Assembly: GCA_000143165.1 (NCBI GenBank)
Contig: CP002084.1
Span: 1-64,000, forward strand
From: Dehalogenimonas lykanthroporepellens BL-DC-9
GTDB lineage: Bacteria > Chloroflexota > Dehalococcoidia > Dehalococcoidales > Dehalococcoidaceae
Reading direction: 5' to 3'
Length of the DNA stretch: 64,000 nt
The position numbers and the translations under genes were made by a program. The notes under the pieces were generated by a model, which was not told the origin of the DNA, did not search any database, and saw only the letters and a program-made list of their open reading frames with translations. Numbering within the stretch: position 1 is the stretch's first letter; every line of letters starts with the position of its first letter. Positions 26,787 through 32,719 of the stretch are shown here, one piece after another.

Positions 26787-27623
26787 TCAGGCCGGTCTGG
26801 TAAACCCTTCCCTGGTGGCCACCATATCTATAGGGGCGGTGATGATATCTTCTGCCTGAGGCCTGCATTCTCTCTTCAATTTCCGCTCATCGGTGGTTTT
26901 GATGTAAGAATGACAGGTATCGCATACCTCGGCAAAATGAGCCGAATCGTCACCGAGGCTCAACTGACGTATCTCGGTTCGCTCCGGGTTTTCACAGTCA
27001 GAACATTTGTGCCTTGGGTATTCCCATTGGGTATGACACATACCACAGAAGAGTTTTCTGAAGCCTTTTTCCCCATAAATGACGCTGTATCTGGGTGGAG
27101 TACCACAGAACGGGCATTTACCTTTAGTCCACGGAATTTCCCTGTTCTGGAATAACGGGTGATAATTCATTGCAGAATGAGAGAAGAAAGGTACCAGCAG
27201 GCTATGAAAGAAGAAAGCCATAGTCTCTGGGTTGAATCCGGTGTCTGACGATAGTGATTCGAGGTCCAATTTATCTGCCAGTAAATCACGAGCAAAAGAA
27301 GAGACATCGTTCCCGTACGACGATATTATTTTGAAAACATCTTCCAGCGGGAAAGAAACCCCGGAAGTCTTACCGAACAACTCTGCAAGATCCTCAGCGG
27401 CAGTTCGAAACACATTAAAAGGCATTTGGGGAATTTGCTCGTTCATAGCCGGTACTCCGGCCGCCAGATTATCTGTGCCGAATGAAGAAACGGCAGGAGC
27501 CGGTCCGAGCTTGGCTCGAACCGACTCCTGGATTTCCAGTATCTTTTTATTCAGGTCAATTACAGGCCCTAGATTGGGCTGTTCCGACTTGTAACGCTCC
27601 AGTTCGGAACATATTTTGTCCAT
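26787..27623 (-). CDS. fdhE: FdhE-like formate dehydrogenase accessory protein
   Basis: Cytoplasmic chaperone that binds the Tat-exported formate dehydrogenase catalytic subunit before assembly. The 278-residue product has a rubredoxin-like C-terminal half with CxxC pairs CPFCGTPP, CGMCHTQWEYPRHKC, CSDCENPERTE and CDTCHSYIKT. The ATG at 27623 (MDKICSELER) is preferred over a GTG 15 bases earlier because GGTGA sits at the right distance upstream. It is the last gene of the fdh operon, and its presence fits a real formate-dehydrogenase-type complex rather than a generic molybdoenzyme. Confidence 0.85.
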   Translation of the reverse strand: MDKICSELERYKSEQPNLGPVIDLNKKILEIQESVRAKLGPAPAVSSFGTDNLAAGVPAMNEQIPQMPFNVFRTAAEDLAELFGKTSGVSFPLEDVFKIISSYGNDVSSFARDLLADKLDLESLSSDTGFNPETMAFFFHSLLVPFFSHSAMNYHPLFQNREIPWTKGKCPFCGTPPRYSVIYGEKGFRKLFCGMCHTQWEYPRHKCSDCENPERTEIRQLSLGDDSAHFAEVCDTCHSYIKTTDERKLKRECRPQAEDIITAPIDMVATREGFTRPA

Positions 27624-27638
27624 ACTTGATTCACCCAC

Positions 27639-28802
27639 TTAGGCCGGTACAACCTCAGGGTCCATTTTGGCCACCGACTCAGGTAATCCAGCCTTCTGGT
27701 AAGAGAACAACGGCAGGTATTTGGCAGCCAGTCTGAAGACATACATCGCACCGGCGATAAGGCCGAAGGTGAATAGGAATTCCCATACGCTCGGGAAATA
27801 ACTACCAACGCGAGCTGGAGCATGGGAAACCATAAGTGTAGCGATACGGTTACTCATCATGCCCAAGACGATCAAGCCTGAAATCCACATCAATCCGGCA
27901 CGGGATTCACGGACTTTCTTGATGGCGATAAGGATTATCGGGATTACTGCCCCGACAGCTATTTCGGCGATGAACAGAGCCCCGAACTCATCAAAGGCAA
28001 AGGCTGACAGATTTCCGCCCTGCGCCAGGTCGTAGAATCTGACTACTAGCCAGACCACCAAGAGGCCAGCGACAATCGGCATGAGTTTGGCGTAAACGTC
28101 CAAACGAGTTGTCAGTTTCCATGATTTGGAAGCTATCAAGCCGAAGAAAGTCAATACCGCAAGGCCAAGGGGCATGGCGGAAATGACGAATAGATATCCC
28201 ATCATGTGCTGATGCCAGAGCAGGTGTTGGTCCGGAGTGATCAGGAACAGCGCACCGAGCGATGACTGATGCAGGAATGATAACAGGATACCGAAGGTAA
28301 CCAGAGGGATGGCCAGCGCGTGCTGGATTTTTGCGGCGTTTTTCAGGCCGAAACGCTCGAATACGTTAGGACTGAACTCAAGGTACAGGACTGTCAGGTA
28401 CATCATGACACACCAGCCCACCTCGAACATGATGGAGTTATGTTGCCACATCCACAGCGGATGTACGATTAAAGGTGTGCGACCTAAATCAACTGCGATA
28501 CCGATGGCACCGATGGTATAACACAGAGCGGCGATAAGGATCGCAGGTTTGACAAGAGGACGGAAAGTTTCGATCCGGAAGATATAAACCAAAGCGGCCA
28601 GAACGAAACCACCGGCGGCGCTGGCAATATAGACACCGACGTCGAAGGCGACCCAAAGCCCCCACGGCCAGTTATCAGTAAGATTGGTGATTGCCCCCAG
28701 GCCCAACACCAGCTTGGCCACAATGACACCTATAGCGCCTAGACCAAGAAGTATCTGGACGATGCCCCAGAAGCTGAACAACGGAATATTTCTGTTATTC
28801 AC
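27639..28802 (-). CDS. NrfD/HybB-family membrane anchor subunit
   Basis: A 387-residue polytopic protein with about ten hydrophobic segments, NrfD/PsrC superfamily, that passes electrons (and in some systems protons) between the iron-sulfur subunit and a membrane partner. Seen: WPWGLWVAFDVGVYIAS near the N-terminus, HNSIMFEVGWCVMMYLTVLYLE, SFLHQSSLGALFLI and LLWHQHMMGY, the last two typical of HybB-like anchors. It lies 2 bases after the iron-sulfur gene and 15 before fdhE. In Dehalococcoides the corresponding protein (OmeB) is thought to replace a quinone-linked anchor. Confidence 0.9.
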   Translation of the reverse strand: MNNRNIPLFSFWGIVQILLGLGAIGVIVAKLVLGLGAITNLTDNWPWGLWVAFDVGVYIASAAGGFVLAALVYIFRIETFRPLVKPAILIAALCYTIGAIGIAVDLGRTPLIVHPLWMWQHNSIMFEVGWCVMMYLTVLYLEFSPNVFERFGLKNAAKIQHALAIPLVTFGILLSFLHQSSLGALFLITPDQHLLWHQHMMGYLFVISAMPLGLAVLTFFGLIASKSWKLTTRLDVYAKLMPIVAGLLVVWLVVRFYDLAQGGNLSAFAFDEFGALFIAEIAVGAVIPIILIAIKKVRESRAGLMWISGLIVLGMMSNRIATLMVSHAPARVGSYFPSVWEFLFTFGLIAGAMYVFRLAAKYLPLFSYQKAGLPESVAKMDPEVVPA

Positions 28803-28804
28803 CT

Positions 28805-29632
28805 CTAATGAGTTCCTCCTTTTGAATTACTATCTATGACGCCTTTGGCTTTCAGGCGCATTGTGCGGAAATAGTAAACTCCAACCAGCAGAGCCGCTAA
28901 TCCTGCTACCTCGTACGGTATCTTCGACAGGAACTCCCAAGTGAAATCAGGATAGGGCTCATTTTCTACTTCTGGGAAGCCGATGTCAAGCGGAGAAACA
29001 CCAGCCAGGAACATCACCTGAGTCCCACCAACTTCGTTTTCACCGTAGACGTGGTCGTAGTATTTGTCCGGACGTTGTTGAATCCTGTTCTTGGCCAGGG
29101 CCAGCAACTGGTCGCGTTCTCCGTAGAAAATAGCACTGGGCGGGCAGGTCTTGGAACACGCCGGTTCCTCGGTGGGCTCTCCCGTTTCGGCGCGGTCCCA
29201 ACACATGGTGCATTTGGCGATCTTGGGCCAGGGGTCGGTTTCGCCTTCTTCGTTGTACCAGCTGAACTTGGGGATATCAAAGGGACAGGCGTTCTGGCAG
29301 TAGCGACAGCCAATACACTTGCCTTCTTCCCACACTACCCGTCCGTTTTCCAGTTTTTGCAGAGCGCCTACAGGACAGACGGAAACACAGGCAGGGTGAA
29401 TACAATGCATACAACGCTTGGAGACGAAATGCCAGGAGATTTCCCCGTTGGCTTTCGGTATTTCGAAAAACTCAACGTGGACATAAGTATGAGCGTTGGT
29501 TTCGACCGGGTTGGTCATGGTGGGGCTGAAACCGGTTTCCACGCCGGGCTTCAGATTCCATTGCTTGCAGGCGCTCTGGCAACCGCGACACCCGGTACAC
29601 CGGACAGTATCGATTAAAAGTCCTTTCGCCAT
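28805..29632 (-). CDS. Four-cluster iron-sulfur subunit of formate dehydrogenase-like complex
   Basis: A 275-residue HybA/FdnH-type subunit. Cys groups: CTGCRGCQSACKQW, CMHCIHPACVSVCP, CIGCRYCQNACP and CTMCWDR...CSKTCPP; a hydrophobic helix near residues 240-260 anchors it. It should collect electrons from FdhA and pass them to the NrfD-like anchor. It closely parallels HupX at 23061, including the tail. Only 3 bases separate it from fdhA and 2 from the anchor gene. Confidence 0.93.
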   Translation of the reverse strand: MAKGLLIDTVRCTGCRGCQSACKQWNLKPGVETGFSPTMTNPVETNAHTYVHVEFFEIPKANGEISWHFVSKRCMHCIHPACVSVCPVGALQKLENGRVVWEEGKCIGCRYCQNACPFDIPKFSWYNEEGETDPWPKIAKCTMCWDRAETGEPTEEPACSKTCPPSAIFYGERDQLLALAKNRIQQRPDKYYDHVYGENEVGGTQVMFLAGVSPLDIGFPEVENEPYPDFTWEFLSKIPYEVAGLAALLVGVYYFRTMRLKAKGVIDSNSKGGTH

Positions 29633-29635
29633 CGT

Positions 29636-32600
29636 TTAGCTCCCCCTTCTGATTACCGGAGGCTCAATGGGTTTGGCCTTCCCGGTGAATTCGGGCAATT
29701 CTCCACTGCCGACTCTTTCGACCTTGACCAGGAAAGCCTTGGATTCCGGAATCATCGTGTTGGCGTCACCGGCGTTGGGTGACAGAGTGTTGGCACTGTC
29801 GCCGACACTAAGCCCAGCCCAGCCCCAATGCCAGGGCATACCGATCTGGTGGATGGTCTTTCCGGCCATGTCGAACGGTTTGAACCGCTTGGTGACCATG
29901 GCCTGGAGCTCGACACTGCCTCTGGCGGAACTGACTTTGACGATATCACCGGATTCGATACTTTTTTCACCGGCCAGTTCTTCGCTGATTTCCACAAAAG
30001 GTTTGGGTACCATTTCAACCAGCCAGGGCAGATTTCGGGTCATGCCGCCGGACTGCCAGTGTTCGACCAGCCTGAAGGTGGTACACACGATGGGGTATTC
30101 ATTGCGATACCCCTTGATATCCAGTCCGCCTTCCCAGATACGGAAGGTCGGGTTATCCTGCTGACTGCTCATGGCGTTATCGACAGGGCTTTCCCAGGGT
30201 TCGTAGTGTTCCGGGAACGGCCCATCAGCCAGACCGGGGCCGAAGATGCTGGCAACGCCGTCGGTCTTCATGATGAACGGCAGGTAGCCACCTTGATTCA
30301 TCGGGGGCGCCCCGCCATCAGGAACGTCACCGTCCCATTTGGCTGATCCGGCATTCCACTTGATAACCGGTTTGGCGGGGTTCCAGGGATTGCCATCCAA
30401 ATCGACAGAACAGCGGTTGTAGATGATGCGGCGATTGATCGGCCACGCCCAGGCGTATTTTGCGTTTAAGCCGATATTGAAGGGGAAGTCATCAAGGTCT
30501 CTTCTGGCAGACATATTGCCGTCTTCGGTGTAACTCCCAGAATACAACCAATTACCGCTGGTAGTAGTGCCATCGGCCCTCAAGCCAACGAAGTTGGTCA
30601 TTAATTTACCGGTGGTCAGGTCATAGCCATTGTTCTCTTTGGCCACCTGGTGGGGGTCAACGTGCGTCCCGTAATTCCAGTCCATCTTGGTGATGGCTTC
30701 AGCATTCGGGCCGCCTTCGGCATTGTAAAGTTCCTGAAGCTTCATCATCAGTAAATTGATCATGTCCAGATCAGGCATGGCGTCTCCGGGTGGATCAACC
30801 GCCTTGTAGCGCCATTGCATCCAACGCGAAGAATTGGTGACCGAACCTTCCTTTTCATAAGAACAGGCGGCCGGCAAGAGGAAAACCTCGGTTCCGATAC
30901 TGGAAGGATCAACCCCGGGGCGTTTCCAGAAGTTGGCGCTTTCGATTTCCCACAGATCCGAGCAGATAACCCAATCCAGTTTTTCCATAGCCTGGATTGT
31001 CTGGGTGTTGTTCGGTCCGCTGATGATGGGATTCATGCCCCATATCATCAACCCTTTGATGTTTCCTTCGTACATGTTCTTGAACAGGGGAATCCAGGAA
31101 TAGTTGGCGCCGGCATCGGCCTTGGGCAACCAATCGAAGCCAAAGCCGTTCTCCGCTGTTCCGTTTTCTCCGTACCAGGCCTTGAGCATGCTGACTGTAT
31201 ACTTGGGGCGGTTTTTCCACCAGTTCAGACTTTTGGGGTCGTGGGATACCGGAGTAGTGCGTGTGTTGTAGTCTGTCAGTGTGAAATCGGTGTCCAGGAA
31301 CATTGGCAGATAGCCGGGCAAGATATGGAAGAGCAGACAATAGTCTGTGGCACCCTGAACATTGGATTCACCGCGGAGGGCGTTGATACCGCCGCCGGCT
31401 AAACCGACATTACCCAGCAGAAGTTGCAGGATACAATAACCACGGATGATTTGGGTACCGTAGGTATGCTGGGTGGCGCCCATGGCATACATGATGGTCA
31501 TGGCCTTTTCCGGGGCGCCGGTTTCGGTGACCAGGTCGGCGATTTCCTGCATCTTGGCGATCGGGATGCCGGCAATCTCGTTGGCTTTTTCAAAGGTGTA
31601 CCTGGAGAAATGTCGTTTCATTAACTGGAATACACAATTGGGGTCCTGGAGGGTCTTGTCCCTGATCGGAACTCCCTGTTCATCCAACTGGAAAGCCCAG
31701 GTGGACTTGTTGTAGTTTCGGGTGGCAGTGTTATAGCCGCTGAACAGGCCGTCAAGGTCAACCGGTCCTTTGAAATCCGGATTGACCAGGAAAGGCGCGT
31801 TGGTATATTCCTTGATGTAGGTCATGTTGTAGTGTTCAGGCCGGACTTCTATGTCTTGAATGACATAATTTATCAGCGCGCCGATTACTGAAATGTCTGT
31901 GCCGGAACGCATCGGGGCGTAGATGTCAGCCTTGGCTGAAGAACGGGTAAACCGGGGGTCAATGGAAATGATCTTGGCGCCGGTGGTCTGGGCTCGGAGA
32001 ATATGGGTGTAAGAAGCCGGATGATTCTCCGCGGGATTGGCGCCGATGATAAGTACAAGGTTAGCATTGGCGACGTCGGTCCAATGATTGGTCATGGCAC
32101 CGCGTCCGAACGATTCCGCCAAACTGGCGACAGTGGAGGAATGTCAGAGGCGGGCCTGTGTTTCCATGTATACCATGCCCAGACCTCTGAGCATTTTTAC
32201 AAGGAGTTCACATTCCTCATTGTCCAGGCAGGAAGCGCCGACCATGGCCAACGCCTCGGTGCGGCGCACCCTATTACCCTTGGCATTGGTTTCAATCCAG
32301 TTATCGTCCCTGGTTTTCTTGATACGCTTGGCCATTTCGGTAATGGCCCAGTCCCATTCCTTTTCTTCCCACTCGGAAGCGCCGGGCGCCCGGTATTTGA
32401 CTTTCTTCAAGCGGCGGGGGTTGTTGTGAATCTGAGCGATGGCCGCTCCTTTGGAGCAGGCGCCGCCTTGGTTTACCGGGTGGTTCGGGTCGCCTTCGAG
32501 GTTGGTCAGTCGGCCCTGCTCATCCGTGTAGCAGAGAAAACCGCAACCTGAAGCATCATAAGGGCAAATGGTGTAAGTTTCCTTGACCCATCTGGGGCGA

Positions 32601-32719
32601 TCGTCCACCGGGGTGGCCGAATCAGCCATGGGGCCCCTGAACAGACCGGCGGTCGCAAAGAGTCCGGCAACTCCGCCACTGGCCTTCAGGAAGTCCCGTC
32701 GCGTGACTTGAGACTTCAT
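29636..32719 (-). CDS. fdhA: Formate dehydrogenase-like catalytic subunit, selenocysteine at UGA
   Basis: One 1027-residue molybdo/tungstoenzyme split by an in-frame UGA at 32144-32146, codon 192. The first part has a twin-arginine signal (TRRDFLKASGG), [4Fe-4S] ligands CPYDASGCGFLCYTDE through ACSKGAA, and ends METQARL; UGA follows and the frame goes on HSSTVASLAESFGRGAMTNHW, exactly the place of catalytic Sec in FdnG/FdhF. The second part carries the bis-pterin-guanine-dinucleotide domains (LIIGANPAENHPAS, GANYSWIPLFKNMY, PVIRRGS end). A SECIS-like hairpin lies directly behind the UGA. First gene of the operon. Dehalococcoides homologues carry Ser here as I recall, so this would be the active form. 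Confidence 0.93.
32112..32146 (-). promoter_or_regulatory. Candidate bacterial SECIS element in fdhA
   Basis: Read on the minus strand, after the UGA come 18 bases, then loop AGTTT held by stem CGCC/GGCG, with outer pairs TTC/GAA. In E. coli fdhF the apical loop also begins 18 bases after the UGA and is preceded by a bulged U; a U precedes the CGCC stem here. Folding and SelB recognition are inferred. Confidence 0.6.

Follow-up and report, generated by a model that had tools for sequence, protein, structure and literature searches.

The gene fdnG of Dehalogenimonas lykanthroporepellens BL-DC-9, which lies on the minus strand at 29636..32719 of the 64,000-nucleotide window analysed here, most probably (roughly 0.93) encodes a periplasm-facing, selenocysteine-containing formate dehydrogenase of the FdnG family, next to genes for iron-sulfur and NrfD-type subunits and FdhE. 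Earlier work on the genus already contains the core of this finding, namely a Sec formate dehydrogenase with a SECIS element and sel genes (PMC13390414, PMC7729418, PMC4918011, PMC5330540). In the published Dehalogenimonas systems (PMC13390414, PMC7729418, PMC4918011) the gene, the UGA and the sel genes are the same as here, with nothing essential different; the FdnG proteins are described as containing Sec (PMC13390414, 2026), and for strain IP3-3 the UGA was described together with a putative SECIS (PMC4918011). Our additions are the covariation of the hairpin, a three-residue contrast with OmeA and with a paralogue, the co-distribution of FdhD, the assignment of the membrane subunit to the NrfD type, and a genome (G005) in which no FdnG or FdhD was detected.

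The gene and its codon were read directly from the genome. The frame of fdnG opens with an ATG at 32719 and closes with a stop at 29636; the TGA at 32146..32144 (codon 192) is the sole interruption within it, as the first-pass annotation had claimed. Read-through gives a product of 191 + 1 + 835 = 1027 residues, which matches TIGR01553 (formate dehydrogenase-N alpha) with 1270.6 bits against a cut-off of 814.2, as well as PF00384, PF01568 and PF04879. The gene had been called fdhA-type at first; it does encode a formate dehydrogenase catalytic subunit, but of the FdnG type. The product can be aligned over its full length with selenocysteine-containing formate dehydrogenases of known structure, E. 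coli FdnGHI (1KQF) and Desulfovibrio FdhAB (8CM4) being alignable over the whole catalytic subunit, and the UGA falls in the column that holds Sec/Cys in the structurally solved alpha subunit of D. vulgaris, where it had been placed from the start. TGA occupies this column in all seven Dehalogenimonas genomes that carry fdnG and in 73 of the best 80 relatives in other genomes, the other 7 having Cys codons, and one-TGA genes of the FdnG family are the common state in a sample of the order too. Judged from these alignments, the in-frame UGA at 32144..32146 (minus strand) is predicted to specify selenocysteine in a formate dehydrogenase linked to the membrane.

The catalytic residues are intact. 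FdnG of BL-DC-9 keeps U192, H193 and R449, the last located by aligning the protein to the D. vulgaris enzyme; this Arg is catalytic in formate dehydrogenases. Sec/Cys, His and Arg are conserved between the Desulfovibrio and BL-DC-9 enzymes. Dehalococcoides OmeA carries Ser, Thr and Gly instead, and the Ser given for these homologues in the first-pass annotation is indeed encoded, by AGC or AGT, in three genomes. BL-DC-9 has a second FDH-N-like gene at 413446-416433, whose product exceeds the TIGR01553 cut-off and is 46% identical to that of fdnG; it has Gly-Pro for Sec-His and Asn for Arg. The second FDH-N-like protein of genome G004 has Ser, Gln and Ser at the three positions, and a third, cytosolic FdhA-like enzyme of BL-DC-9 (212-214 kb) has Cys at its catalytic site. 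Since Sec, His and Arg are retained by fdnG and lost in the paralogue, fdnG is the gene fit for formate, and of the two FDH-N-like genes in BL-DC-9 it alone is predicted to be equipped for formate oxidation. In D. etheniformans GP, whose FdnG has Sec193 (PMC7729418), formate serves as an electron donor for growth (PMC11170663). The opposite claim, that Dehalococcoides and Dehalogenimonas cannot use formate and that their FDH-like protein is non-functional, has also been made (PMC5736913); judging by its gene number, the Dehly_0443 named there may correspond not to fdnG but to the Gly-bearing 413-kb paralogue.

The paralogue also differs from fdnG in its setting, beside genes for a hexaheme cytochrome c and for Ccm proteins. 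In BL-DC-9 this run (406254-418445; L133:254-12445) comprises ccmF, an ABC ATPase, ccmB, a ccmC-like gene and a hexaheme CXXCH cytochrome c directly upstream of the FDH-N-like gene, followed by Fe-S and NrfD genes, and G004 has a gene run of the same kind (L134). Multiheme cytochrome and maturation genes would not be expected in a relative of Dehalococcoides, which is free of cytochromes, and a full-text literature search for the genus found nothing on such a run.

Three genes on the same strand follow fdnG, with gaps of 3, 2 and 0 bases between successive genes. The first (28805..29632) encodes an iron-sulfur subunit with 4Fe-4S dicluster domains, for which HybA and HmcB are the best models, both below their cut-offs; the second (27639..28802) a NrfD/HybB-like membrane subunit (PF03916, 59.8 bits); and the third (26787..27638) an FdhE-like formate dehydrogenase accessory protein (PF24860 and PF24859 over the cut-off, TIGR01562 below it at 68.7 bits). 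At the start of fdnG itself, 32640..32719 (minus strand) encodes a putative twin-arginine signal region, MKSQVTRRDFLK, with an RR motif and a Pfam TAT_signal score of 20.5 bits, just under the cut-off of 22.7. A family search of the membrane subunit gene gave no match to the cytochrome b561/FdnI family and returned only NrfD/HybB/HmcC/QrcD-type models; the membrane partner of FdnG is thereby assigned to the NrfD type, not to the FdnI cytochrome b of E. coli, where the membrane subunit carries heme b. In the published description the operon is instead fdnGHI, its gamma subunit being a b-type cytochrome (PMC13390414). The NrfD-type arrangement fits the quinone-free type II CISM complex drawn for Dehalococcoides (PMC10772276) and differs from the redox loop of E. 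coli FDH-N.

The resemblance to Dehalococcoides extends to the whole operon. Its OmeA is about 52% identical to the FdnG catalytic subunit, FdhE adjoins in both, and the order fdnG-FeS-nrfD-fdhE parallels omeA-omeB-fdhE, although the OmeA operon has no Fe-S subunit gene. The NrfD-type subunit of the fdnG operon shares 64% identity with OmeB (Dehalococcoides genome G008), versus 46% for that of the paralogue. In a protein tree, OmeA groups with the Sec-less paralogues (support 99/97), and an AU test against FdnG and OmeA as one clade gave p 0.032. By this tree the 413-kb paralogue might be the OmeA of BL-DC-9; the order of the genes, the identity to OmeB and the presence of FdhE instead favor the fdnG operon. 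Both Sec-less branches are long, so the tree grouping could possibly reflect either long-branch attraction or an old duplication.

This parallel raises the reading that Sec is inserted but that FdnG in BL-DC-9 is mainly an OmeA-like structural or proton-routing subunit of the organohalide-respiration complex, with formate oxidation a minor activity. It draws on the shared gene order and the OmeB identity, and a published proposal has FdnG serving both as a formate dehydrogenase and as the counterpart of OmeA (PMC13390414). However, the retention of Sec, His and Arg in BL-DC-9 goes along with that of FdhD and SelABCD, and the components tested, SelA and FdhD, are missing from the Dehalococcoides genomes that have OmeA only; we give this reading rather low odds. 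SelA was found in 8/8 Dehalogenimonas and 0/3 Dehalococcoides genomes. FdhD, which is required for the maturation of such formate dehydrogenases, occurs in 7/7 genomes of the family with FdnG and in 0/4 without. The one Dehalogenimonas genome in which neither FdnG nor FdhD was detected, G005 (1,725,728 bp), has kept SelA. This genome is at odds with the statement that all analysed genomes, including BL-DC-9, carry selCDAB and the fdn operon (PMC13390414). G005 also has a cytosolic FdhA-like gene (C1:1434268-1436934; L136:5269-7935) with TGA at the Sec column and a match to our SECIS model (E 1.2e-10); its BL-DC-9 counterpart has TGC instead.

The machinery for selenocysteine is complete in BL-DC-9. 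The first-pass annotation had held that the genome needs selA, selB, selC and selD, and a search of its single contig (1,686,510 bp) found all four contiguous, as selC-selD-selA-selB, at 1469900-1474348. The anticodon of selC is TCA, and selD (1470042-1470968, L137) has an in-frame TGA at 1470072, making it a selenoprotein gene itself. An unusual 7/5 fold had been described earlier for the BL-DC-9 tRNA(Sec) (PMC5330540).

The RNA behind the codon is also under constraint. Within the SECIS region (32102..32146, minus strand), a hairpin directly 3' of the UGA has a stem pairing 32126-32129 with 32117-32120 and a small apical loop, AGUUU, at 32121-32125. Counting the UGA as 1-3, the four pairs are C18-G30, G19-C29, C20-G28 and C21-G27, and the loop (22-26) bears a G-U; U17 and G23-U24 correspond in position to the bulged U and to the loop bases contacted by SelB in E. 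coli fdhF. Across 22 FdnG genes (18 distinct sequences), 100% of pair cells are kept, with one G-U and two compensatory changes (C18-G30 to G-C in L050 and C21-G27 to G-C in L070), whereas controls with slid partners gave 26-54% pairing and 0-1 compensatory changes. The codons after the UGA have a synonymous identity of 0.95-0.97 over 10-14 codons compared with a gene mean of 0.55, and the value of 0.95 for 14 codons ranks first among 969 windows of this length. The fdnG region is also the best match in the genome to our SECIS model R1 (E 4.4e-22, the sequence itself being part of the model). In contrast, folding the single sequence for minimum energy gives another structure (z -1.1; 26/200 shuffles as good). 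Covariation and synonymous constraint thus uphold the originally claimed hairpin, with its loop 18 bases after the UGA, while single-sequence folding does not return it; because the single-sequence energy is unremarkable, the hairpin claim rests on comparison. We rejected this minimum-energy fold of the 41 bases (stem ACUG/CAGU) as a functional candidate: its pairing holds in 81% of cells, and its covariation does not exceed that of shuffled sequences. In the 48 bases after the UGA (loci L040-L108), most desulfobacterial-type fdnG genes share a different, nearly invariant sequence, GTAGCGGCTCTGGCAGAGTCGTTCGG, its loop seemingly being shifted in the 3' direction relative to the Chloroflexota type.

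These data bear on whether the UGA might be a true stop, fdnG being a pseudogene or two open reading frames (191 and 828 aa), as the standard code, which splits the frame there, would have it. We regard this as highly improbable. The UGA and the next 14 codons are nearly invariant in the seven genomes, the full Sec machinery is present, and UGA is also what relatives from different phyla commonly carry. Moreover, amino-acid identity is similar on either side of the UGA; the downstream half is about as conserved as the upstream one and is therefore under selection, purifying and of similar strength in both halves, which argues that fdnG is not a pseudogene. A Cys codon misread as TGA is less probable still, for despite the TGC or TGT at this site in some relatives, the agreement of seven genomes makes a base-calling error in BL-DC-9 very unlikely and the SECIS hairpin is kept.

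For the selenocysteine-containing formate dehydrogenase that we favor, we infer the following route. Binding of SelB-GTP-Sec-tRNA(Sec) to the hairpin that immediately follows UGA 192 would lead to Sec insertion in place of termination. FdhD and FdhE would mature the molybdenum site, and the RR motif suggests export by the Tat pathway. Formate would then be oxidized outside the membrane by Sec192, His193 and Arg449, with electrons probably passing from FdnG through the Fe-S subunit to a quinone-independent organohalide-respiration complex, in which FdnG may hold the place that OmeA holds in Dehalococcoides. It is tempting to go further, although we put this at slightly under even odds, and to see FdnG doing double duty in the place of OmeA, with formate electrons reaching the reductive dehalogenase directly via the NrfD-type module and OmeA being a descendant that lost Sec, His and Arg along with the Sec machinery (Dehalococcoides has neither SelA nor FdhD in its genome). 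The dual role was already put forward in PMC13390414; the three-residue contrast is what we add to it.

A selenocysteine-containing FdnG helps explain why formate can be an electron donor in Dehalogenimonas, unlike in Dehalococcoides, and a key respiratory enzyme would be missed wherever automatic annotation split fdnG at the UGA. Sec/His/Arg in FdnG, Ser/Thr/Gly in OmeA and Gly/Pro/Asn in the paralogue form a natural set that would allow a direct test of the dual-role proposal.
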